Below are positions 2,552-27,169 of a stretch of DNA of 64,000 nt, piece by piece. The notes below the pieces were generated by a model, which had not been told where the DNA came from, made no database searches, and saw nothing but the letters and a program-made list of their open reading frames with translations. Source of the DNA: Flavobacteriales bacterium (lineage in GTDB: Bacteria > Bacteroidota > Bacteroidia > Flavobacteriales > TMED113); the NCBI GenBank assembly GCA_002718895.1, contig PBGD01000007.1, positions 1 to 64,000 of the forward strand, given 5' to 3'. The translations under genes and the position numbers were made by a program. Positions within the stretch are counted from its first letter, which is position 1, and each line of letters begins with the position of its first letter.

Positions 2552-3262
2552 ATGAAAAATTTAATTTATATTTTATTATTCCCTGTTATAGTGTGCTCCC
2601 AAAACAACAATATTATTGATGTTAAAAAATCTAATAAAATTGTGTTTTCTACAGACTTTGGAGCTCAATTTTATTATGGCAATAAATTTTTAGATTCAGA
2701 TCAATTTAGCAGAGAAGGGTTTATTTTAAATTTCAATTTGTTTTTAAAAAAAAGAAAGAAAAAATATATAATTAAATCCAATGCAATAGTTAGTTTGTCA
2801 AACGCAATGTCAAAAAAAATAAACATATATAACCCTGAAATAAACACAAACTTTACCACAAGAGCCCCAAATATTCTAGCATGTAATATTAATTATTCAT
2901 TATCAATTCAGAGTGAATTAAAATATAATTTATACCACGCTATTTGTCTAAAATTTAGAGTTTTCCCAATTTTTTACAAAAAGGGAAAAGTAATGAACTC
3001 TTATATATATTCATTTGGTGGTTCAATTGCATCTGAATCAAATGGCAGTTTGCCTGATCTTGAAAAAGCTATGCAGCTTTCTTATCAAATGTTATATAAA
3101 TTAACAAATACATCAAATATTTATATTACATGTTTTTTTAATAGCGATTGGACATTTAAAAAGTCCCAAATAGGCTCGCTATACCCTGGGGTTTCATTTA
3201 AATTTGAAAAAATCATAAATCAGAATATAAAAGTACCTTGGTTATCAAGATTTAGAAAGTAA
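2552..3262 (+). CDS. Hypothetical secreted/outer-membrane protein
   Basis: Signal-peptide-like start MKNLIYILLFPVIVCSQ; alternating beta-strand-like pattern; no recognised family. Confidence 0.55.
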   Translation: MKNLIYILLFPVIVCSQNNNIIDVKKSNKIVFSTDFGAQFYYGNKFLDSDQFSREGFILNFNLFLKKRKKKYIIKSNAIVSLSNAMSKKINIYNPEINTNFTTRAPNILACNINYSLSIQSELKYNLYHAICLKFRVFPIFYKKGKVMNSYIYSFGGSIASESNGSLPDLEKAMQLSYQMLYKLTNTSNIYITCFFNSDWTFKKSQIGSLYPGVSFKFEKIINQNIKVPWLSRFRK

Positions 3263-4703
3263 AAAGTTTTTTTTCTACGCAACCATTATCATAAATATAA
3301 AAAAGTATACGGTCATTTCCATTATTAAAACTTTGCCCTAGCATATTTGTAATTTTTACAAGAGATTTATCCTTTGATGTGCAGTCTGGAAACATAAGTT
3401 TTAAATCTTGAATATTTTCATCAATCCAATTAATTCTACGGGATATCCAATATTTCAAATAATCTACTTCATCTTCATATGAGAGCCCGATTTGGTAATT
3501 AGGCCATATCCATTCATTTAAAATATCCCATCGCTGAAAGTTTCTTTTTTGTGCATTTTCGAGATATTGACTCAAACTATCTATATGATTATAGATTTTG
3601 TCAATATTCAACTCATTTAATCTCAATTCTTCCCATCTTTTTATTAAGCTATTTCTGTAAGAATCATTCTTAAGTAAATCTCGCCAAAATGTAGGAACAC
3701 TAGATATGCAAGACGTTTCTTGTTCTATTACCCACCCATTGATATTAGAAGATTGACAAAAATCTACATTTCCAAATGATAAATTATAGTCCCAGATCGG
3801 CCCCAACCTAAGTTTACCATTATTTATTTCACTGTCCTTGTGCAAAAAAACACTGATCCTATATGCATCTACATCTTTACTCAATTCGCTTATTATAAAG
3901 TAATCAATAAATGATTTAAAGTCGATTTTGTCAACTAAATCAATTTCACTTTGATTTTCTATCAGTTCTATTAATAAAGAATTCACCTCATTTATAAAAT
4001 TTTCTATATATATTTTTTGACCTGTTTTAATATCATCTGCTTTTGGATAATGATATTGAAAACATACATTATCTTTATTAAAATTTAAAATATTCGAGCA
4101 CCAGGAGGCATTGTCGGGAGCATCAGTAAACTTATCAATCTTAATTATATATCCTCCAGATGCAGGATCTTGATTATCAAATTCACTAATATTTACTCTG
4201 TTTATATCTCTTTTAATTTTTTCTGTTAAAAGATATACTCCTTTATATTCATCATTAATAAATAATTCGCAATACTTTGTTCTAGGGGAATAATATCCCA
4301 TTTGTTTGGATATTTCATAAGCCAAATTATTTCTCATCAATGTTTTGTCGGAGTATGGACCATATAGAATCCAGTCATTTTCTTCAGGCATTCCGAGCAA
4401 GGAAATGTTATTATTGTCACCATCTTTTGTTTGAGTTTCTAGACTGTAAGATTTTTTGGGAAATATATCTTGTGAAGAACTACCTCTTAGCTCAATGCTA
4501 ATTTGCCCATTATAGTTATTGTATTGATCAGACAAATAGTTTAAACTACCTGGGTTATGTATTATCCCCATATTACTTATAATCCTAGGATCATCCAAAA
4601 TAGTATTACCGTAAGTATTTATTACTATAATTGGAAGATTTGAATAAAAATCTTGACATAAAGTAAAAATTGGAATAATAAAAAAAAAAAGATTTTTTTT
4701 CAC
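3252..4703 (-). CDS. CotH kinase family protein with T9SS-like C-terminal tail
   Basis: ELRGSSSQDIFPKKSYSLET, YKGVYLLTEKIKRD, LRLGPIWDYNLSFGN are CotH-type motifs; C-terminus KITNMLGQSF...FYIYDNGCVEKKLF. Confidence 0.87.
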   Translation of the reverse strand: MKKNLFFFIIPIFTLCQDFYSNLPIIVINTYGNTILDDPRIISNMGIIHNPGSLNYLSDQYNNYNGQISIELRGSSSQDIFPKKSYSLETQTKDGDNNNISLLGMPEENDWILYGPYSDKTLMRNNLAYEISKQMGYYSPRTKYCELFINDEYKGVYLLTEKIKRDINRVNISEFDNQDPASGGYIIKIDKFTDAPDNASWCSNILNFNKDNVCFQYHYPKADDIKTGQKIYIENFINEVNSLLIELIENQSEIDLVDKIDFKSFIDYFIISELSKDVDAYRISVFLHKDSEINNGKLRLGPIWDYNLSFGNVDFCQSSNINGWVIEQETSCISSVPTFWRDLLKNDSYRNSLIKRWEELRLNELNIDKIYNHIDSLSQYLENAQKRNFQRWDILNEWIWPNYQIGLSYEDEVDYLKYWISRRINWIDENIQDLKLMFPDCTSKDKSLVKITNMLGQSFNNGNDRILFYIYDNGCVEKKLFTF

Positions 4704-11184: not shown

Positions 11185-13302
11185 TTATCGCTTAACTATT
11201 TCTATAGTTGTATCCTCTTTAAGGTCAAAAGTTAATTCAGTTTTATATATTTTTTTATTATTGATTTTAAAATAAGTAAAATTAGGACATGTTTCATCAA
11301 TAATTTTTATTGTGTATTCTATTCCTGAAAAGTACTCTCCCAGAAAGTCACCCTGAAGACTTAAACTATTTAAATTAAAAGAACATTCTGACAGAATTTT
11401 AATTGTATACACGGATTTAATTTGAAAATATTTTTTTAATTGTTTTTTTATATTTTCAGGTCTTTTATTAAAAAATGTATACATCTTTTTAAGATTTAAT
11501 CTTTCCCATTTTTTAATTATTTTTTCATTGGTCCCAAAGTATTTTTTAGAGTCATATTTTTTAAGCAGTCGAGGCATTTCTGGCTCAATTTTTTTTTGGA
11601 AATCTAATGCTGCTGAGAATATATTTTCTGGCTTTAGAAGGGTGTTTAATAGATCCATATACCTTGTCAAAAAGGTCTCCTTAATGTGGGTATTTGATAA
11701 GAAAACCAAAAACTCTTTATTAGAAGCTTCTTGCAATAAATACTCGAACATATCGTGTTCATACATATTATTTTTTTTAGACCCGATTCCTGCATCTAAA
11801 TCAACTAATAAGTATTTCCATTTTGTGTTTTTTTCTGAATTCCAGAACATAGAGTTATTAGGAATCCAATCTAGGTTTGCAGCATAAGTTTGCGTAATAT
11901 AGTAGTCAGTCCAATTTTTTATATCAAAATGACCTATAGCTCTTTCAGTTTCTAAAGGAGAATTTTTAATTGATAATTTCTTTATCTTTTCCCTAAGCTC
12001 AATGTATGATTTATTGTTGCCAATTATTTCTACGCCCCATAGTTTTAATAATGAATAATTATCGTCTCTACCAAAAGACTCTTCAAAATATGTTTTGTTG
12101 TATCTTTCTCTAAGATGTAATAAACCATAATACTCTCCATTAATAAAAACAACACATGGTTGTGCTGCTTGAAAATCTACATTAATTTTAGGGCCTAAAT
12201 AATTCTGAAAAAAGGCGTCTCTAAAATGAACTTTCAATGCATCTTGTCCTGAGTTTCGAAGTATAATTTCTGAAAATTCATCACTTTTTTTATTCTTAAA
12301 TGGTTGAAATTTAAAATTATCATTTTTATTATTTGCAATGAGCCTAATTGATTTTAGGGCACTTGTTTTTGAATAATTGCCGTGAATTTTAATTTTAACC
12401 TTTTCTTTTAAAAGAGCTTTTTTGTCTTCATTAAAGTATTCGGCAAACGCTGCAAGTTTTATGTTTTTCCAGTAATTAGCGCCTTTATAAGGGAATGTGT
12501 CTTCTGCAGAAAACCCTTTTTTCATAATGCCAATTGTATCATTCCAAATAGAATTACTATCTGCAATTATAGAGACTATAGGTAGTTGGGTTTTTTCATT
12601 AACAAATAATGATAAGTGCTTGTTTTTACTTTCAAATTCTCCTACAATAAACTTGGCTTTTATAGTGATATTTTCTTTCACTATTAAGCTGTCTTTAAAT
12701 TGCTCTGAGTTTTTGTTTGGATTCGATCCATCTGTTGTAAAATACATTGGAATGCTAGATAAAGTTGGATCTATTTTTAGAGTTACAGAATTATTATAAA
12801 ATCCTGATTCTAAATTGAATTTAGGTTTTTTTAATCTTACAATACTTGCATTATTAGTTTTTCCCATACTTCTAGATGACATTGGAACAATCAGTTTATT
12901 CCCATCTGGGAATCTTCCACAGTATGGTCTATTATTCAATTTTTTTAAATGAAAATCATCAACAATTTCGCCATTAATATTGAGTTGAATACTTATTTCT
13001 TTGGAATTAGTGGGAGTATCTACTTTTGCAAAAAACCAATCTTTCGCTTTTAATTTTGTTAACTCTTCAAGTATTATTTTTTTTGAATTTATTAATATAA
13101 AAGCAGAGTCAATATTAATATCAAAATTACGAGAATTGAATATTTCTATATATTCTAATTGATTTGGAATTTCTTCAATAAATGATAATTCATTTATAAA
13201 AACACCGTAGTGATTCTGAGAAAATTTATTGGTGTTTTTTTTAGTTCCTATTGTACAACTACATATTAAAATACATATAATAAACACGTAACATCCCCTC
13301 AT
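11185..13302 (-). CDS. CotH kinase family lipoprotein with N-terminal lamin-tail-like and chitobiase-C/Fn3-associated-like domains
   Basis: Lipobox CILICSC; VFINELSF...YIEIFNSRNFDINID (LTD-like); PMYFTTDGSNPNKNSEQF (CHB_HEX_C-like); CotH motifs KIHGNYSKTSALKSIRL, INGEYYGLLHLRERYNKTYF, WKYLLVDLDAGIGS. Confidence 0.87.
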   Translation of the reverse strand: MRGCYVFIICILICSCTIGTKKNTNKFSQNHYGVFINELSFIEEIPNQLEYIEIFNSRNFDINIDSAFILINSKKIILEELTKLKAKDWFFAKVDTPTNSKEISIQLNINGEIVDDFHLKKLNNRPYCGRFPDGNKLIVPMSSRSMGKTNNASIVRLKKPKFNLESGFYNNSVTLKIDPTLSSIPMYFTTDGSNPNKNSEQFKDSLIVKENITIKAKFIVGEFESKNKHLSLFVNEKTQLPIVSIIADSNSIWNDTIGIMKKGFSAEDTFPYKGANYWKNIKLAAFAEYFNEDKKALLKEKVKIKIHGNYSKTSALKSIRLIANNKNDNFKFQPFKNKKSDEFSEIILRNSGQDALKVHFRDAFFQNYLGPKINVDFQAAQPCVVFINGEYYGLLHLRERYNKTYFEESFGRDDNYSLLKLWGVEIIGNNKSYIELREKIKKLSIKNSPLETERAIGHFDIKNWTDYYITQTYAANLDWIPNNSMFWNSEKNTKWKYLLVDLDAGIGSKKNNMYEHDMFEYLLQEASNKEFLVFLSNTHIKETFLTRYMDLLNTLLKPENIFSAALDFQKKIEPEMPRLLKKYDSKKYFGTNEKIIKKWERLNLKKMYTFFNKRPENIKKQLKKYFQIKSVYTIKILSECSFNLNSLSLQGDFLGEYFSGIEYTIKIIDETCPNFTYFKINNKKIYKTELTFDLKEDTTIEIVKR

Positions 13303-15929
13303 GATCTAATCATTTTTTTAACAATTATTATTAAAAACATTATTAATAGAATATAACTTAAACCTTTATATTTATTAGAATTCTGCACAGAATTTATTAA
13401 ATAATTTGGGCCAATTATTTCAAATTTTTTATGTGAATTATCTAATTCTGAAACCGTAATGTTTTCAATATTTAGTTTTTCGTTTGGAAATAAAATGCGT
13501 TGATTTACACAATTCCAAATGATTTTTTTATTATCAAATATTTGTAAACCCTTTAAATCAATTGGGTACGGTGCATTTGATGTTAGGTATATGCTTGTCC
13601 CATTTTTTTCAGTAAATAATTTATATGGAAATTTCTTATTAGCTTTAATAAATTCAACATGTTTATTGACAAAAGTATTATTAAACATTTCATTTTCTGA
13701 TACCGCACTTACAAGATTAGGATTTTCAATAATTATAGGATGAGCATTATTTATGTAGTAATTATTATTTAATTTAATCATACCACTTCCCTCTATCCCT
13801 ACTCCTTTTTTGCAAGTCACAATAAGATTATTCTTCACCTGATTATTCATGGATGTGCTATCAATAGTCAACGAAATCCCTTTATCTTTAGAATTAATAA
13901 TTGTATTATTAAACACCTGTATTTGCTTGCCCCAATTCAGGTCAATACCATCATCTGCAGAATTAGTAATAAAGTTATTGTATATTTTAAGATCTTGACA
14001 TTTAGTTCCTTCAATAGCATCAGCTATTCCAATAATTGTATTTTTACTAACATCACCAGAGCAGTCTAACATAAGTACACCTTCACCTGAATTATTTTCA
14101 AAATAATTATTTATTATTGTAACAGGACAATGGTTGAAGCTCACAGACTCTCTGACAAAATTATCAGTGGCTTTACATTTTATCATTTTTGCTTCTCCTC
14201 TTATTTGGCGAATTATAGATTTCCATTTTACTTGTGAAAAATCACAGTATTCTAATTCTAGATCTCCTTCAGAATATATTCCTGACCAAAATAATTCTTC
14301 TCTATGACATTGAATCTTAATAAGATTATTTTTATCACCATGTATTTTTAAACTACCGTAATTTAAAATCTGGCAATTTGGATAAACATAAATCTCACTT
14401 TTCCCTTTAACAATTAATTTGCCAGATTTTTCAATTTTGAGGTCTTGAGGAATTACAATTACTTTATTTTCAAGAACAACCTTGTCATTAATAGTCCCTG
14501 TTAAGAAGTGTGCTTCTCCGACATTAAAAAAACTTCTTGTGTTGTGACCATTTGTTTTAGTCTGGCCATTTACGGCATTTATGTGCCAATAGTATTTCCC
14601 TTTGGGCAAAGAATATTTGAAAAAAGTATCTCTAATATTTTTAAATATATAAGTTTCTTTATTATCAAATAATTTACTTTCACTTATTTTCAAGTCATAT
14701 GAATTACATTTTTCATTTCCCACATAAGAGTTCCCCCAGGTTAATAAAATGGTGTCTTTAAAATGTTGGTTATAATTATTATACATTAAAAATGGTGTGG
14801 GGGTATTATTAATTTGATTTTTAACCTCTTTTGGTCGATTTATTATATAATTTTTAATTTTTTTAATTTCTTTTTCCCATTGTTTAAAGGAATTTACCTG
14901 GTCCGTTGTATCAAGATCTATATATTGATCTAAAGTAATTTTAAGTGAATCAATAATTGGATAAAGTACTTCTGGATTAAAAATATTTTCAGATATATTT
15001 TCAATTTCTTTTTTAATATCTTCAAAAATAACAGGATGTAAAAAAAGTTTTTTAATTAATGGGTTTTCTGGCATAGCCCCAGAAGACAAATTACTCCACG
15101 AGCAATAATCATATCTTAAAAACTCATTATATGAACTCATAGTTTTATCTAGGTCCCAAGGCAAGTAATACCATTTATTATCATCAATTATGTTGTGATA
15201 TAAAAAGTAATTATGATAGTAAGTGCTACCATTGCCAATTAATATATTTAGAGCAACAGATGATATCAAGTTTTGATAATTAAATTTATCTTTTATAAAC
15301 TCACGATATCTATATATCGGTGTATAATTGATTTGATCAATTAATTGCTTAAGATCTTGATTTCCCCAATTTATATTATTTTTTTTTTGCCAATAATAGT
15401 CCGCATCATCATACATTGACAAATTTGCATAATCTTTGCTAGCTTTATATAAGTTGCCATATGAACTTAAATTATTCCTTAATAGAAAACTATCATCTAC
15501 ATTTTCTACGTCTAAATAAATTCCTAAAAATTCGTCATTTAAAAATACAGCTTTGTGGGAGCAAGAAAACACAGGCACACTTATCATACTGTATAGTTGT
15601 GATGATAGTTGTTGGTGCATATATGATTTATCTAAATAGTCTGCATTTAGATTAATACTTTTATTTCCACTTTCAGTGGAAAATTTTATTTTAAGTGACT
15701 TTTTGTTAAATTTTCTTGATGAACTACCTCTAACCCTTACTTTTGAGTTGTACTTTCCTCCGTCATACTGCAACTCACAGTTTATGTAATTATCATCTAA
15801 ATAATTTAAGTAAATACCATTAAAATCTTCTGAATCACAATAAACAAATACCGAATCAATTTGTGAGCTAATTAAGTAGTTTGTAAAAAATAAAAACACA
15901 AAAATTATTCTTTTTAAATTTCGAGTCAT
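13299..15929 (-). CDS. CotH kinase family protein with parallel beta-helix region and C-terminal TM segment
   Basis: VRVRGSSSRKFNKKSLKIKF, LNDEFLGIYLDVENVDDSFL, WYYLPWDLDKTMSS; repeated short hydrophobic/Asn repeats (NNFITNSADDGIDLNWGKQIQVFNNTIINSKDKGISL); C-term YILLIMFLIIIVKKMIRS; 4 nt overlap with the downstream CotH gene. Confidence 0.87.
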   Translation of the reverse strand: MTRNLKRIIFVFLFFTNYLISSQIDSVFVYCDSEDFNGIYLNYLDDNYINCELQYDGGKYNSKVRVRGSSSRKFNKKSLKIKFSTESGNKSINLNADYLDKSYMHQQLSSQLYSMISVPVFSCSHKAVFLNDEFLGIYLDVENVDDSFLLRNNLSSYGNLYKASKDYANLSMYDDADYYWQKKNNINWGNQDLKQLIDQINYTPIYRYREFIKDKFNYQNLISSVALNILIGNGSTYYHNYFLYHNIIDDNKWYYLPWDLDKTMSSYNEFLRYDYCSWSNLSSGAMPENPLIKKLFLHPVIFEDIKKEIENISENIFNPEVLYPIIDSLKITLDQYIDLDTTDQVNSFKQWEKEIKKIKNYIINRPKEVKNQINNTPTPFLMYNNYNQHFKDTILLTWGNSYVGNEKCNSYDLKISESKLFDNKETYIFKNIRDTFFKYSLPKGKYYWHINAVNGQTKTNGHNTRSFFNVGEAHFLTGTINDKVVLENKVIVIPQDLKIEKSGKLIVKGKSEIYVYPNCQILNYGSLKIHGDKNNLIKIQCHREELFWSGIYSEGDLELEYCDFSQVKWKSIIRQIRGEAKMIKCKATDNFVRESVSFNHCPVTIINNYFENNSGEGVLMLDCSGDVSKNTIIGIADAIEGTKCQDLKIYNNFITNSADDGIDLNWGKQIQVFNNTIINSKDKGISLTIDSTSMNNQVKNNLIVTCKKGVGIEGSGMIKLNNNYYINNAHPIIIENPNLVSAVSENEMFNNTFVNKHVEFIKANKKFPYKLFTEKNGTSIYLTSNAPYPIDLKGLQIFDNKKIIWNCVNQRILFPNEKLNIENITVSELDNSHKKFEIIGPNYLINSVQNSNKYKGLSYILLIMFLIIIVKKMIRS

Positions 15930-15936
15930 TTTTTCA

Positions 15937-17874
15937 TTATTTAATTAAATACTTTTTCTCAATAGAACCATCATCATAAATTTCTAAATAAAAGCCTTTG
16001 GTTTTTGTTCTAATATTTCCAGGAACATCAATTACACTAATTAACTTTTTAAAATATAGCCTATTGTCATTTGTTTTTAATAAATCTAATTCAAATAAAT
16101 TGGAGAATGAAAGGCATCCATTACTATCAATATATGAAACTGAATATGATCCATTTTGTAGTGGTATATAATTAAATTGATTAGCGCCATTAATACTGTC
16201 TCCATTTAAAAACCATTGATAACTCATCATGGACGATTCAGTATACAATGTAGATGAAGAGAAATTAATAGAAGCATTACTAGTTGGATAAAATTCAACA
16301 TTTGTAATAATTACACTATCACAACCAACAGGATTATATAAAGAGTCAATATATACACCTTCTTGAGTATATGTTGAATTTAATACAAATGCTGTATCGC
16401 CTTCACAAATTGAATTATAAATATAATTAGTTTCATCTGAACACATCAACCCCTTAGCGACATTAATTGAGTATGGATATAAAGCAATATTAACAGTGCC
16501 AGTATCTTTCAATGTTTGTATATAATCATTTCCATCAATTACATCATATAAAGAGTCAGAATAACTTTTTTCCCAAAATACATTATTGCTATTTGAAAGC
16601 ATATCGTCAACCGACACTATAATAGTATCTTCTGAAATATTTGTTAAAATAATAGACCCTTCTTGTGTTATCTCGTTTTCAAATCGCCAACCAAATAATG
16701 TAGGATATTCAACAATTCTTGGCACACCATTATTATTAAAGAAGGTTACAGTATCCATTAAATTAATTGGTGTTTTGATTCTAGTAGCTTTTGATTTGTC
16801 AATTTTGACTTTATTCCATATTGAGGCAAAAACACCAGTAGCTCGTTTTCTATAATTATTTTGTGTATCTAGAGCATCCCAATTTTCAAAAATTCCACCA
16901 ATATTAAACATGCTAATGTCTTCAACCAATTTATTATTTAAAAATAATTGATGAGATGCGCTAAACATTAAAACTAAGCTCCATCTATTTCGGAATCGGT
17001 GATCAGAAGTATTATCCGTAATACCGTATCCAACCCAAAGTTCATAAGGCTGCAAATTCGTTGTTGTATCTTGAAATCCACGTACGGATTCATAAGTAGG
17101 GATTTGATCAAAAGCATATGCTAATAATTGCTTAGTGGTAAACAATGTGTCGGCACCTTTAAGGTAGAAAAATGCAGACCACCTAAATGCATCTGCTGGA
17201 TTAGTCATATTATACAAGGCTTCATTCCAATACTGTGCCCTAGGGTTAGAAGCACCAAAGTTTCCAGCTGAAACCGCAATTTTAGTGTTTGGTAGAAATG
17301 AACGAATAGAGTCAATATAAATATCACAAGTCGCGGCATAATCTTCAGCAGTAGGAAAATGACTAATGCTGTGTGTGTTTCCAGATTTTCCCATTTCATC
17401 TCCTAGTCTAATTCGTTCAATTGAAACACCATTATTTTTGGCAGAATGTAAACTTTCAAGTTGAGAAGTAATACTACTGCTAATCATATTTAAGCAATAC
17501 AAACCTTCAGCATTCACTTGATTTAATGCATTTTGAAAATTTTCAGGAGTTATGTCAATAACTGTAGCATTTGCTTGACCCCAAGTTAATTGAATAGAAT
17601 CAACACAGCAAGTATCTAAAAAAGATTGAGGGTAAAACCATCCATTGTCCCAATCCCATAAATCTGGAGATGGTGGGTAAGCTAATACGTCAGGAAACAT
17701 AGTAGCAACGGAGTCAACAAAAACACTATCCACCCATGATGGACCCCTCCAAGTTTGACCACCAAAATTAGCTGTTGGAATTGATCTATTAAAAGTATCT
17801 AACTCAAGAATAAATTGTTGCGGAAAAATAAAAGAGCTTAATGAAATAAAAAATATAAATAAAAATTTATTCAT
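15937..17874 (-). CDS. Secreted protein, possible TIM-barrel glycosidase-like N-terminal region, T9SS-like C-terminal tail
   Basis: Signal peptide MNKFLFIFFISLSSFIFPQQ; long N-terminal domain with IERIRLGDEMG reminiscent of clan GH-A acid/base strand; C-term ISVIDVPGNIRTKTKGFYLEIYDDGSIEKKYLIK. Confidence 0.6.
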   Translation of the reverse strand: MNKFLFIFFISLSSFIFPQQFILELDTFNRSIPTANFGGQTWRGPSWVDSVFVDSVATMFPDVLAYPPSPDLWDWDNGWFYPQSFLDTCCVDSIQLTWGQANATVIDITPENFQNALNQVNAEGLYCLNMISSSITSQLESLHSAKNNGVSIERIRLGDEMGKSGNTHSISHFPTAEDYAATCDIYIDSIRSFLPNTKIAVSAGNFGASNPRAQYWNEALYNMTNPADAFRWSAFFYLKGADTLFTTKQLLAYAFDQIPTYESVRGFQDTTTNLQPYELWVGYGITDNTSDHRFRNRWSLVLMFSASHQLFLNNKLVEDISMFNIGGIFENWDALDTQNNYRKRATGVFASIWNKVKIDKSKATRIKTPINLMDTVTFFNNNGVPRIVEYPTLFGWRFENEITQEGSIILTNISEDTIIVSVDDMLSNSNNVFWEKSYSDSLYDVIDGNDYIQTLKDTGTVNIALYPYSINVAKGLMCSDETNYIYNSICEGDTAFVLNSTYTQEGVYIDSLYNPVGCDSVIITNVEFYPTSNASINFSSSTLYTESSMMSYQWFLNGDSINGANQFNYIPLQNGSYSVSYIDSNGCLSFSNLFELDLLKTNDNRLYFKKLISVIDVPGNIRTKTKGFYLEIYDDGSIEKKYLIK

Positions 17875-20687: not shown

Positions 20688-21113
20688 TTAATGACTATGT
20701 CCGTGTCCGTGTCCGTGTCCGTGTCCGTGTCCGTGTCCGTGTTCATGTGAATGTAATTTTTTAATATCACTTTCGACATTTTCATACAAACTATATTCTA
20801 ATTTACCGCCCAAAAATTTTGCTATTAAAACACCCTCTTTATTATAGTATTCTTCTTTTTTCGGAGCATGGTCATAACAATAATACTTAAGTTGACCATT
20901 TTTATAATACTCTTTAATAAAATTCGATTTTTTGTTTTTTTCTATACGAATTTGACCGTTTTTAAAAAAAGACTTTGAACTTATTTCTTGATTTTTTTCG
21001 TAAGTAACTTCAAGTTTAATATCGCCATTTCTATAGTATGTTTTTTCTATCGATTGTGACAATAAACTAGATAAAGTCAACAAGGTCATTGATAAGAAAC
21101 AATAAATTTTCAT
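20688..21113 (-). CDS. YwqK-like (MORN-variant) repeat protein with C-terminal (His-Gly) tail
   Basis: Repeats YYRNGDIKLEVTYEKNQ, FFKNGQIRIEKNKK, YYKNGQLKYYCYDH; tail HSHEHGHGHGHGHGHGHGHSH; signal peptide. Confidence 0.8.
   Translation of the reverse strand: MKIYCFLSMTLLTLSSLLSQSIEKTYYRNGDIKLEVTYEKNQEISSKSFFKNGQIRIEKNKKSNFIKEYYKNGQLKYYCYDHAPKKEEYYNKEGVLIAKFLGGKLEYSLYENVESDIKKLHSHEHGHGHGHGHGHGHGHSH
20701..20742. repeat. Hexanucleotide tandem repeat (ccgtgt)x7
   Basis: Seven perfect copies read directly; encodes the Gly-His dipeptides on the minus strand. Confidence 0.98.
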
Positions 21114-21157: not shown

Positions 21158-22441
21158 CTATTCAATAATGTATTTTTTGTCCACAGTGCCATCATCATAG
21201 ATTTCAAATTTAAATGATTTATTGGCATTATCTCTACCCATTAAATCTATCCATTGTATTATTGATTTAGTGTTTGGTTTTTCTATTATATTACTAGAAC
21301 TGCAACAAGAACACATTACATCGGGATCTCCCCATTGAGAGCCGGTAGAATTAAAGTTAGTAAATCCGTTGTTTGCATAATCTAAACACCATTCACACCA
21401 TGAGTTTTGGTTTGGTCCCCCATTAGGATCAGATACAGGCCATGCATTGTATGTGTCACAACCAAAATCACACCAATCTTGACAATCAACCAAAGATGTA
21501 TATGTTCCACTTCCATCACCTGGGTCGGTACATTCATAGCCATTTGTTGTTGTGTTTAATTTACAACTCCAAGTGGCTGGTGGTGGAGGGCAACAATCAC
21601 ACATTACATCGGGATCTCCCCAATTCACACCATTAGGATTAAAGTTGGGATAGTAGAATGAATTTGGGTTTTGATAATCTATACACCATTCACACCATGA
21701 ATTTTGATTTGGTCCACCGTTAGGGTCAGATGTTGGCCATGAACTATATGTATTACATTGACACAATTGATCTAGGGTGATGATTATTGAAGAATTTGCT
21801 ACTGCTTCACAGTCAGCTAATGAAGAATACTGTCCACTTCCATCTCCTGGATCTGAGCACTCATAATAAGCAGCTTGCGGATTTATCGTGATACACCAGC
21901 TTGGTGTTGGAGTAGGAGTGCAGCAATCGCAAGACACATCAGGATCAGGACCCCAAGTAGCTCCGGTTGCATTAAAGTTAGTAAATCCGTTATTTGCATA
22001 GTCTACACACCATTCACACCATGAATTTTGATTTGGTCCACCATTAGGATCAGATGCAGGCCAAGTATCATATGTATCGCAAAGATCACAAATAGGTTCA
22101 CAATCCGATAAACAGCAGTATTGACCACTTCCGTCTCCTGGATCTACACATCCATCTGGTGTACAGTTGTAGCTTTCAGTCTGATTATTATCACAACATT
22201 CGCAAGAAACATCAGGATCAGGACCCCAAGTGGCTCCAGTTGCATTAAAATTTTGGAAATTATTGTTAGCGTAATCTACACACCACTCACACCATGAATT
22301 TTGGTTTGGTCCACCATTGGGATCAGATGCAGGCCAAGTAGAATATAGCGAGCAGTCTTGAGAAAATGATGAAAAAGAGATGAGTATTCCAATAAAAAAT
22401 AAGATGTGTTTCATAATGCTAAATGTTAAAATTTTTAGCAA
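21158..22441 (-). CDS. Secreted Cys/Trp-rich four-repeat protein with T9SS-like C-terminal tail
   Basis: Four copies of xTYxxWPxSDPNGGPNQNSWCEWCxDYxN...FN..G..WG.PDV.C.CC, three followed by DPGDGSGxYxSLxDC; C-term IQWIDLMGRDNANKSFKFEIYDDGTVDKKYIIE. Confidence 0.88.
   Translation of the reverse strand: MLKILTFSIMKHILFFIGILISFSSFSQDCSLYSTWPASDPNGGPNQNSWCEWCVDYANNNFQNFNATGATWGPDPDVSCECCDNNQTESYNCTPDGCVDPGDGSGQYCCLSDCEPICDLCDTYDTWPASDPNGGPNQNSWCEWCVDYANNGFTNFNATGATWGPDPDVSCDCCTPTPTPSWCITINPQAAYYECSDPGDGSGQYSSLADCEAVANSSIIITLDQLCQCNTYSSWPTSDPNGGPNQNSWCEWCIDYQNPNSFYYPNFNPNGVNWGDPDVMCDCCPPPPATWSCKLNTTTNGYECTDPGDGSGTYTSLVDCQDWCDFGCDTYNAWPVSDPNGGPNQNSWCEWCLDYANNGFTNFNSTGSQWGDPDVMCSCCSSSNIIEKPNTKSIIQWIDLMGRDNANKSFKFEIYDDGTVDKKYIIE
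21299..22360. repeat. Four long coding repeats (about 0.3 kb period) within the Cys-rich protein gene
   Basis: Near-identical DNA blocks 'caccattcacaccatga(g/a)ttttg(g/a)tttggtcc(c/a)cc' near 21389, 21687, 22010 and 22282. Confidence 0.9.
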
Positions 22442-22454
22442 AGGTACAAATTAT

Positions 22455-24188
22455 TTATTTGTTAAAGATTTTGCGCACAGAGCCATCATGCATAATTTCA
22501 AGATATAATCCTTTTTCTACAGTAGATCTTCCTAATAAATCAATTCTTTTAATTACATGAGATGTATTTAATTCTTCAATTGACAATGGAGTTTCATCAC
22601 ATGCATCACCATAGCCATCACCATCAGAATCAGCTTGATCAGGGTTATAATCCCAGTAACAATTGTCACATGCATTACCAACACCATCATCGTCATTATC
22701 AGATTGAGTAATGTTATAATTTTGATAGCAATTATCACATGCATTACCATAACCATCGCCATCGCTATCTGATTGACTTATGTTATAATCATCAACACAG
22801 TTATCAACTTCATCTAGAATACCATCTCCATCAGCATCAGCAAACGGAGCACCACACTCATATTCTAGAGTTTCACAATTTGAATTTAAGCAACTACTAT
22901 TTAACTTAGGTATCAAAACCTGTGACTTTACAATTGGATGAAACTCGAAATATAAATCTGCAAGGCTAGTTACATGACAATAACTCATTATAGTTCCATA
23001 TTCGTAAGTAGAATTTAAAAATAACCCATCAGGGTTGCCGTAGCAACTATCATCAGGGTCAAATAAGCTTCCATACATATTGCAGTTATCTATTGCTCCA
23101 CCAGGAAAATCATAATTTGCATCAGCATTCCAAACACAATCATGGGTGTGATTAGCACCAATATTGTGACCCAGTTCATGAGATACTACCATAAAATGCC
23201 ACGAATAAAAATTACTAAATGGTTGAGATAAATAATTATAATTAATAGTTGTACCTAGTCCTCCAGTTACGGCATAACCCCATTGATTTGAGCAAAGTAC
23301 ATCTAATTCAGCAAGTCCGCCGCCCACACTTTTTCTAGTAAATAAATGTGCAATATCTCGCTCTACCTGAGTAAATTGAGATGGCCACTGCCAAGTATCT
23401 TCAAATGCATTTAGATATTCGTACATGTCATCATTTAGCTCATTGTACGGACCAGGTGTTTCCCATACATGCACATAACTAGCTTGAACAATTGCATCTA
23501 ACTCAGACGTGTATATTTCACTAACACCAGTTAAAATAGCTAGTGCCCATTCAACAGCATCTTCGCAACTATAATCAAATTCACTATAGGTGTAGAAGTC
23601 AATTTCAACAGCCATATTTAAACATAGTTGGTTACCACTTCGTTCATTTGAATTATGAAAATCTATATTTTGAGGTGTATTATCGCTTGTTTTTGTGTGG
23701 CAATTAAAATTAAAATCAGCAATCGTATCAGACATGTCCACAAGAGCATAATGATTATTCTCTATGTGGACAATTTCATAAACTTTACCATCTTTTTTCA
23801 ATACACCAATTAATACATTTTTATAGATTGATAAACTCCCAGAAATTTGGGTTTTTCCTAAAACTCGATAAGAAATTGTTTTAGGGACGTAATCTTCCTC
23901 CTTATAACCTGTATCAGTTGTCCTACCTAATTTGAAACTTTGAGTGTAAGCTTCAAAATAATTTAACTCAAGTGTTAAGGATGTATTATTGAAAAAAGGT
24001 ATTTGTACAGTCTTATAGCAAGGTTGAAAATTTGTTAAACTATCAATTAATTCTAGGTTTATATCTAAATAAATGGTGTTTTTAGCTTGATTAGTCAAAG
24101 GTTCTCCCGCTATGTCAGATAATATAAAAATATCTGATTGGCTTAAGCAAATGAAAGGGATGAGAATAATGAATAAAATTTTTTTCAC
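22455..24188 (-). CDS. Secreted metzincin-type zinc metalloprotease with thrombospondin type 3 repeats and T9SS-like C-terminal tail
   Basis: HELGHNIGANHTHDC (HExxHxxGxxH), GTIMSYCH Met-turn; DADGDGILDEVDNC...QSDSDGDGYGNACDNC TSP3 repeats; C-term VIKRIDLLGRSTVEKGLYLEIMHDGSVRKIFNK. Confidence 0.92.
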   Translation of the reverse strand: MKKILFIILIPFICLSQSDIFILSDIAGEPLTNQAKNTIYLDINLELIDSLTNFQPCYKTVQIPFFNNTSLTLELNYFEAYTQSFKLGRTTDTGYKEEDYVPKTISYRVLGKTQISGSLSIYKNVLIGVLKKDGKVYEIVHIENNHYALVDMSDTIADFNFNCHTKTSDNTPQNIDFHNSNERSGNQLCLNMAVEIDFYTYSEFDYSCEDAVEWALAILTGVSEIYTSELDAIVQASYVHVWETPGPYNELNDDMYEYLNAFEDTWQWPSQFTQVERDIAHLFTRKSVGGGLAELDVLCSNQWGYAVTGGLGTTINYNYLSQPFSNFYSWHFMVVSHELGHNIGANHTHDCVWNADANYDFPGGAIDNCNMYGSLFDPDDSCYGNPDGLFLNSTYEYGTIMSYCHVTSLADLYFEFHPIVKSQVLIPKLNSSCLNSNCETLEYECGAPFADADGDGILDEVDNCVDDYNISQSDSDGDGYGNACDNCYQNYNITQSDNDDDGVGNACDNCYWDYNPDQADSDGDGYGDACDETPLSIEELNTSHVIKRIDLLGRSTVEKGLYLEIMHDGSVRKIFNK

Positions 24189-24226: not shown

Positions 24227-27169
24227 ATGAGATATTTTAAAACCATCCTATTATTTATTTTAGTTTTTATTTCATGTAATAATCAAAAAAATAATGATTT
24301 AAAAAACAATATTATATACTATTGTGATGCTGAAAATGCTACGGCAGATAAAAAGCAATTTATTACTCATGGAGACAAATTTGGTGGTGCTAAATCTAGA
24401 AATTCTGAAGATGCATACAAAGGAAATTATTCATGTAAGTTAGATCAAAGGATTAAGTATGGAATGGAAAAAAAAATATATGATGTTGTTCCAGGTGAAT
24501 TGATCAAAGTCTCAGTTTTTCGCAAAAGTTCTATTGATAATAGTAAAGGCTTTTTAGTTGTTTCCACATCCAATTTAGAAGATGATCAAAAAATTTATCA
24601 AAGTAGAAATAAAAGTTTTGGTGAAAAGGATGAAAATGGATGGGAGCATATTGCATTTGATGTTCAAATTCCGAAAAAAGGTATAAAAATATCAGTACTT
24701 AAAGTGTATGTATATTTGGCTGATCAAGAGGGAGAGACTGTCTATTTTGATGACCTATTAATTGAGAGAGACTTTAGTAGATTAAGTTCTAAAAAATATG
24801 GTAAAGAAGCTATTAGTATTCAAATGGCAGATGTACATTATAACAAATTATTTGCTATGAGAGATACAGCTTTTTTGCAGGGAGTTATAAGCAGTAACTT
24901 AAAAAAATTCGTTCCTGGAATTCTAAGTTATAAGGGAGAAAAATTTCCAATTGAAATAAGGTTAAAAGGAGATTGGACTGATCATATAATTGGTGGCAAG
25001 TGGTCGTTCAGAATAAAATTAAGACAATCACAAAGTTTAATGGGCTTAAAGCAGTTTTCACTCCAAAGTCCTGCAACAAGAAGTTTTTTAAATGAATGGA
25101 TAATACATGAAATGTGTCATGATGAGGATATTTTATCAACTCGTTATGAGTTCCACCCTTTAATAATTAATGGTATGTCATTTGGCATCTATGCATTAGA
25201 AGAACACTTTACTAAGCAATTAATAGAATCCAAAAAAAGAAGGGAAGGACCAATTTTAAAATTTGATGAGAATGGTCTTTGGGAAAGAGAACTATATTAT
25301 AAGAAGAATAATAAATATTTAAATAAGCCATTTTTTGAAGCTTCTAAGATTTTGCCATTTCAAAAGGGTAAAACTATTAGAACACCAAATTTGAAAAACC
25401 AGTTTTTAATTGCTCAGAACTTAATGTTAAAATATAAAAATGGAGATTCTGATTTTACTAGTTATTTAGACCTAGATAGATTAGCAAAAGCATATGCAAT
25501 CATGACCATCGGAAACGTTAAACATGCTTTCACATGGCACAATCAACGGTTTTACTATAATCCTGTTCTTAGTAAATTAGAACTAATTGTGTATGACTGC
25601 TACCCTAATGCTACTCAACAAAAAACGGATCCAAAGATATTTGGAAATTGGGAAGAGGGTACACACTTTGTTAAACCTTCTGAATATGCAACTTTGGCCG
25701 TATTTAACGATTTAAATTTTAATCAGACTTATTTATATTACTTAAAAAAGTTTACTGCAAATTCTTACTATCAAAACTTTTTATCTTCTAAAAAAGACAA
25801 AATAGACTCAATACAAACATTAATTTCGAAAGATTATTTGGGTTATAAGTTTAATAATGAATCATTTTGGAGCAATATTGAAAAGGTCAAAACCATGATC
25901 ACTGAGTATGAAGAAAAAATAAATAAAGAAACAATAAGATTTTCTAGGGAAAACAAAGTATATAATGAGAAAACTGATACTGTTTTCCCTTCAGTGTCAC
26001 TAGTTGCTCATTTAGAGCAATCATACCCAGATGGAACAGCACAAATATCTTTGACTAATTATCATACAAAATCAATTATAGTGTGTGGTTATTCGACAAA
26101 AGAAGATAGAGACAGTATTGTTGTACTTAACTCTCAGTTTTCTATGCTGCCAAGTATTTCAAAAGATGTAAAATATATTTTTGATAAAAATCCGTATAAA
26201 ATCTTTTATAAAGAAAATAACCAAAGCAATAAAACTACACATAGTTGTCTAGTTTCTAATTGGAACAAACCAGTTTTAAAATCAGAGTTATATAATTTAA
26301 TGACCACTAAATTAGATTCCAATTGCGATTTTCTAAAAATAGATAGTAGCCAAGTTACTTTTTTAAAGGGTAGACATTTTGTAGAAAGAAGTATTATTAT
26401 TCCAAAAAACATGAATGTTGTATTTGAGCCAGGCACAGAATTAATATTTGACAATGAAACATTTTTTATAAGTTACTCATCTATTGATATGCAAGGGACA
26501 TTAGAAAATCCTATAAAAATCACATCTCTAGATAATACGGCTAACGGATTTACAATTTTTCAAGCCCCTGAAAGGTCTGTTCTTAAACACGTAGTTTTTG
26601 ACGGTTTGAATACACTTGATCTTTATGGTTGGACATTAACGGGTGCAGTAAGTTTTTATGAATCAGATGTTGATATTAGCTATTGTGAATTTAATAATAA
26701 TGTATGTGAAGATGGTCTAAATGTTATACGCTCAGATTTCAATTTTGTAAATAGCACAATGACTAACACAGCTTTTGATGCTATAGACGGGGACTTTTGT
26801 ACTGGAGAGATATCTGACTCAAAATTCTATACACTAGGCAATGATTGCTTAGATTTTTCTGGTAGTTACATGAAAATCAAGAACTGTCAAATTAATAGTG
26901 CTGGAGATAAGGGAATTTCATGTGGAGAAGCATCCACTCTAAATGTAAGTGATATTAAAATAGATGGAGCTCATACAGGTGCCGCTTCTAAAGATCACTC
27001 AAAATTATTTATAAATAATATTGATATTAATAATTGTAAAATTGCATTTTCTAGTTTTGAAAAAAAATCTGAATATGGTCCAGGATATATGGAAGTAAAA
27101 AATTATAAAATAAATAATACACCAGTTGAATCAAATTCAATAGATGGTTCGAAAATATTATTAAAATAA
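24227..27169 (+). CDS. CotH-kinase-like lipoprotein with right-handed beta-helix C-terminal region
   Basis: Lipobox FILVFISC; IEIRLKGDWTDHIIGGKWSFRIKL, INGMSFGIYALEEHFTKQLIE (CotH-like); C-terminal beta-helix-like repeats. Confidence 0.78.
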   Translation: MRYFKTILLFILVFISCNNQKNNDLKNNIIYYCDAENATADKKQFITHGDKFGGAKSRNSEDAYKGNYSCKLDQRIKYGMEKKIYDVVPGELIKVSVFRKSSIDNSKGFLVVSTSNLEDDQKIYQSRNKSFGEKDENGWEHIAFDVQIPKKGIKISVLKVYVYLADQEGETVYFDDLLIERDFSRLSSKKYGKEAISIQMADVHYNKLFAMRDTAFLQGVISSNLKKFVPGILSYKGEKFPIEIRLKGDWTDHIIGGKWSFRIKLRQSQSLMGLKQFSLQSPATRSFLNEWIIHEMCHDEDILSTRYEFHPLIINGMSFGIYALEEHFTKQLIESKKRREGPILKFDENGLWERELYYKKNNKYLNKPFFEASKILPFQKGKTIRTPNLKNQFLIAQNLMLKYKNGDSDFTSYLDLDRLAKAYAIMTIGNVKHAFTWHNQRFYYNPVLSKLELIVYDCYPNATQQKTDPKIFGNWEEGTHFVKPSEYATLAVFNDLNFNQTYLYYLKKFTANSYYQNFLSSKKDKIDSIQTLISKDYLGYKFNNESFWSNIEKVKTMITEYEEKINKETIRFSRENKVYNEKTDTVFPSVSLVAHLEQSYPDGTAQISLTNYHTKSIIVCGYSTKEDRDSIVVLNSQFSMLPSISKDVKYIFDKNPYKIFYKENNQSNKTTHSCLVSNWNKPVLKSELYNLMTTKLDSNCDFLKIDSSQVTFLKGRHFVERSIIIPKNMNVVFEPGTELIFDNETFFISYSSIDMQGTLENPIKITSLDNTANGFTIFQAPERSVLKHVVFDGLNTLDLYGWTLTGAVSFYESDVDISYCEFNNNVCEDGLNVIRSDFNFVNSTMTNTAFDAIDGDFCTGEISDSKFYTLGNDCLDFSGSYMKIKNCQINSAGDKGISCGEASTLNVSDIKIDGAHTGAASKDHSKLFINNIDINNCKIAFSSFEKKSEYGPGYMEVKNYKINNTPVESNSIDGSKILLK

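Follow-up and report, generated by a model that had tools for sequence, protein, structure and literature searches.

What does an exported bacterial protein do when it consists almost entirely of small cysteine-rich modules, and does it work together with the protease encoded beside it? These questions are raised by a gene on the minus strand (21158..22414) of a 64,000-nucleotide stretch of Flavobacteriales DNA, called the window here. This window lies on contig 7 of a genome of 1.34 Mb, which is 84.6% complete and has a GC content of about 28%. In one reading, to which we give a probability of about 0.5, the product is cargo of the Sec and type IX secretion systems and serves as a disulfide-stapled, multivalent binding protein.

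The list of open reading frames places the start of the gene at TTG 22441. We consider ATG 22414 most likely to be the true start, because a clean signal peptide, MKHILFFIGILISFSSFSQ (22358..22414, minus strand; about 19 residues, judged by eye), begins there. The protein then has 418 residues, and the gap to the metzincin gene directly upstream is 40 bp. The original prediction was right that the two genes are adjacent and on the same strand, but its gap of 13 bp does not hold for this start. Behind the signal peptide, two kinds of module, W and C, alternate in the order W-C-W-C-W-C-W, and a C-terminal region of 47 residues completes the protein.

The four W modules lie on the minus strand at 22193..22354 (residues 21-74), 21920..22081 (residues 112-165), 21590..21757 (residues 220-275), and 21302..21460 (residues 319-371), and all four show the WPxSDPNGGPNQNSWCEWC motif originally described for them. 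The copies are 53-56 residues long, with 36 invariant columns, and each contains six Cys and seven invariant aromatic residues and is devoid of Lys and Arg. A core of 16 residues, SDPNGGPNQNSWCEWC, is invariant in all four. The best ungapped identity between copies over 30 residues is 24-28 of 30, against a maximum of 10 after shuffling, and the first 30 codons are 76-86% identical at the DNA level. Over these codons, dS is 0.63-1.17 and dN is 0.06-0.18, and over the 19-residue core from WP to WCEWC, dS is 0.35-1.04 and dN is 0-0.04 (Nei-Gojobori in both cases; the segments are short and gene conversion could distort the values). Because dN is far below dS, the copies are old and under purifying selection, which argues against a recent duplication or an assembly artefact.

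The three C modules, taken with their linkers, occupy 22082..22192 (core 22100-22150, six Cys), 21758..21919 (core 21809-21859, four Cys), and 21461..21589 (core 21482-21532, four Cys), again on the minus strand. All three CxDPGDGSGxYxxLxDC cores of this second module are present, but the motif quoted originally, (E)CxDPGDGSGxYxSLxDC, conceals irregularities: copy 1 reads QYCCL, and in copy 2 the fourth Cys is displaced, sitting 12 residues further downstream. Of 348 genomes of the order, 60, mostly small ones, give a match to a C-module profile, and 48 distinct copies fit the pattern WxCxxxxCxDPGxGxGxYxSLxxCxxxC. Within the family, one further genome (G011) contains the module, in five copies; it encodes a protein of 279 aa made of five C modules on long Gly-Ser linkers. 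The hosts of the module, as judged by eye, are secreted Kelch-like, thioredoxin-like, phospholipase-like, and PKD-like proteins, in which it often directly precedes a type A C-terminal domain (CTD) or a short tail. C-like modules are also found in long Cys-rich proteins of five IMG/VR contigs, in other words, bacteria and viruses share the module. No library model in Pfam or NCBIfam matches it. A Kunitz-like reading of the C module, as a hairpin followed by a CxxxC helix, was rejected; its PDB and Pfam matches were at chance level only.

The W module is distributed very differently. It has no match in Pfam, NCBIfam, PHROGs, or the PDB sequences, and the whole protein matches none of the catalogued Cys-rich domains (EGF, Kunitz, CBM, etc.) in Pfam, NCBIfam, or PDB, so the earlier impression that it belongs to no named family is borne out. 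A Phage_base_V match in Pfam (E 0.009, under the family cut-off, 17 residues) was dismissed as chance. With a profile of the four copies, the source genome alone responds among 12 genomes of the family and 398 of the order, and among 396 genomes of the phylum, a sample that overlaps with that of the order, the only other match is to the enzyme WbuX. A pattern scan covering 84,980 species did not turn up the W module, and scans of genome contigs and IMG/VR, queried with either the complete protein or the alignment of the W copies, yielded no relatives; such scans begin from exact peptide patterns, which divergent relatives could escape. Phages gave no tblastn match and plasmids no blastn match to the module. 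A scan of IMG/VR for the 15-base TGGTGTGARTGGTGT returned at least 120 stretches, with no W module among the matches listed. The literature covered, which includes few subscription journals, holds no report of the W module, the C module, or the tail. AlphaFold2 reached a pLDDT of 52 for one W module (from a four-row alignment) and 36 for the whole protein, values too low for a fold search. Within the collections searched, the W module thus appears to be an orphan: the lack of conservation outside this genome that the original prediction had named as evidence against itself is what we see for the W module in these collections, whereas the C module and the tail both recur in other genomes.

The route of export is suggested by the last 38 residues of the protein (21161..21274, minus strand), a putative short sorting tail. 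The tail is present at 23 places in the source genome (E <= 0.01), four of them inside the window, where it is also carried by the minus-strand genes at 15937..17874 (tail 15940-16053) and 3252..4703 (tail 3261-3371). It is found in 102 of 398 genomes of the order (E <= 1e-5), among them every one of the 12 family genomes, and often reaches at least 19 copies per genome; of the 396 genomes sampled across the phylum, two have it. The second of these two, from another family, encodes a tail-bearing GH16-like beta-glucanase and is the only match of that sample outside the order. In 38 of 40 tail-bearing open reading frames from six genomes, at most two residues follow the tail. Of 38 complete proteins with the tail, 35 have a signal-peptide-like N-terminus according to a simple hydropathy criterion, which is weakly specific, being positive in 8 of 18 control genes as well. 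The cargo is otherwise unrelated and comprises reprolysin, alpha/beta hydrolase, DUF4886, PAD_porph, Kelch, DUF285, and GH16-like proteins. At one locus (G000 C2, 59500-68500), four tail-bearing genes are clustered; one encodes a reprolysin of 922 aa that is paralogous to the window metzincin, and another encodes a PAD_porph protein. The source genome encodes SprA_N (PF14349, E 2.5e-167), and a component of the type IX secretion system (T9SS) translocon is therefore present. Because the tail stands at the C-terminus of proteins that are exported but otherwise unrelated, in an organism with a T9SS, it is probably a T9SS sorting signal. It is not one that existing models recognise: neither 13 tails nor the whole protein match the type A CTD (PF18962/TIGR04183) or type B CTD (PF13585/TIGR04131) HMMs, none of the 13 tails matches any Pfam or NCBIfam model, and the tail profile does not align with a type A CTD alignment from related loci (probability 1.9%).

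Several other genes of the window deserve mention. Adjoining the W-module gene is a minus-strand gene (20688-21113) for an exported protein of 141 aa with YwqK-like repeats, recognised by eye, and a His-rich (HG)n C-terminus for which metal binding is possible. Genes 11185-13302 and 13299-15929 encode proteins with a CotH kinase domain, of which one also has a beta-helix and the other CHB_HEX_C_1, and the product of 24227-27169 resembles them by eye.

The metzincin itself, encoded at 22455..24188 on the minus strand, is of the reprolysin type, has TSP3 repeats, and ends in a copy of the short tail (22461-22568). The original prediction, which did not mention this common tail, proposed that the two proteins form a secreted pair. 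The W-module protein would then be an inhibitor, a substrate-recruiting subunit, or a protected substrate of the protease, and the adjacency on one strand, the 40 bp gap, and the shared tail are all consistent with this; small disulfide-rich domains are, moreover, a common form of protease inhibitors. We nevertheless regard such a special partnership as very unlikely. Eleven of the 12 family genomes have relatives of the peptidase region, against one of the 12 with the W module (in the twelfth genome, G011, only the repeat/tail part of the metzincin finds a match), and about 20 other genes carry the tail too. The gap between the genes also contains a candidate promoter for the W-module gene alone: the box TACCTTTG (22439..22446, minus strand) agrees with the flavobacterial -7 consensus TAnnTTTG (PMC9723704) and lies 32 nt upstream of the start codon. 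A clear -33 element was not found beside this box, and boxes of the same type lie within 60 nt upstream of 6 of 36 window genes, where about two are expected. Because metzincin relatives are widespread in the family, the W module is confined to one genome, and the W-module gene may be transcribed from a separate promoter, the two proteins are best seen as two neighbours on one export route.

The composition of the protein bears on what it may do after export. From W1 to W4, the seven modules contain 6, 6, 6, 4, 6, 4, and 6 Cys (38 in total), always an even number, which together with the signal peptide supports the earlier description of a secreted, Cys-rich, probably disulfide-stapled protein. 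The modular region of 352 residues has one Lys or Arg and 47 Asp or Glu, with a computed pI of 4.05; Lys and Arg make up a median of 12.6% of the other window proteins. The next-lowest in the window is the metzincin, with five in its poorest 352 residues, and 30 C modules of the alignment have three in 870 residues. The scarcity of Lys and Arg is thus partly a habit of the exported proteins of this genome, and it is extreme in the W-module protein.

The near absence of Lys and Arg, the high Cys content, and the tandem layout would also suit a passive, protease-resistant stalk or surface coat whose W modules bind nothing, as would the generic C modules, which are found ahead of sorting tails or CTDs in many proteins. 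We consider this rather unlikely for the protein as a whole, since the invariant 16-residue core and the seven invariant aromatic residues of the W modules exceed what a spacer appears to need. Another view is that each W module is a zinc site, in which C22xxC25 and the closing CxCC serve as ligands, and that the protein scavenges or stores metal. The spacing of CxxC and CxCC would fit such a site, the adjoining gene (20688-21113) encodes a His-rich protein, and the sole profile match in another genome falls on the SDPN...WCEYC stretch at the N-terminus of WbuX. We think this unlikely: the Cys count is even in every module, cysteines of exported proteins are usually oxidised, and the WbuX match covers only 31 residues without the CxCC end, its E value of 8.2e-5 for one genome corresponding to an expected count of about 0.03 over 396 genomes. 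The similarity is near chance level, and we keep it as a weak lead.

Export and binding by a disulfide-stapled protein, the reading favoured here, would proceed as follows. The signal peptide would direct the protein through the inner membrane by the Sec pathway, and the C-terminal tail would then engage a SprA-type translocon and lead it across the outer membrane, after which it would be released or retained at the cell surface. Three predicted disulfides would staple each W module, and two or three each of the C modules between them. The C modules would be generic protease-resistant spacers, of a kind used elsewhere in the order, and the W modules would be repeated units that attach the protein multivalently to a polymer or to a cell surface. 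We propose multivalent binding by analogy, because small, Cys-rich, aromatic-rich units are repeated on an exported protein, and we give it roughly an even chance; no catalytic domain was found in the protein with Pfam or NCBIfam.

Seen more broadly, the tail may represent a distinct short class of T9SS signal on which a large share of the exported proteins of Flavobacteriales with small genomes rely, and the W module may be a new binding domain, stapled by disulfides, which originated in this lineage and leaves the cell by means of the tail. We hold this combined proposal tentatively, at slightly less than even odds. Should the tail prove to be a type IX signal, current annotation would be overlooking many secreted proteins in this small-genome group, which we take to be marine from its low GC content, its small genomes, and general knowledge. 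A signal of 38 residues would, moreover, be informative about which section of the 100-residue type A domain is really required. The W module, for its part, is predicted to be a well-conserved extracellular domain, apparently without relatives.

How does the protein compare with known systems? The C-module proteins of other genomes of the order share the module, are secreted, and in some cases have the short tail too, but none of them has a W module. The N-acetyl sugar amidotransferase WbuX (TIGR03573) resembles the W core at its N-terminus, over SDPN...WCExC and the next 15 residues (31 in total). The enzyme itself, however, has a large catalytic domain and a CxxC pair at its start, and lacks a signal peptide and the CxCC end. 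Membership of our protein in the WbuX family was rejected, as it lacks the amidotransferase catalytic domain and has no NCBIfam or Pfam match. A review of T9SS signals names types A, B, and C, and describes motifs A-E in the type A CTD (PMC10202324); this Ig-like domain is about 100 residues in size (PMC12618676). The tail differs from the type A CTD in its length of 38 residues, and a PNP-like motif lies upstream in only 3 of 38 cases. On the other hand, the two are alike in standing at the C-terminus of signal-peptide-bearing cargo, in a DxxGR-like start and a Gly/Lys-containing end, and in belonging to hosts that possess a T9SS.
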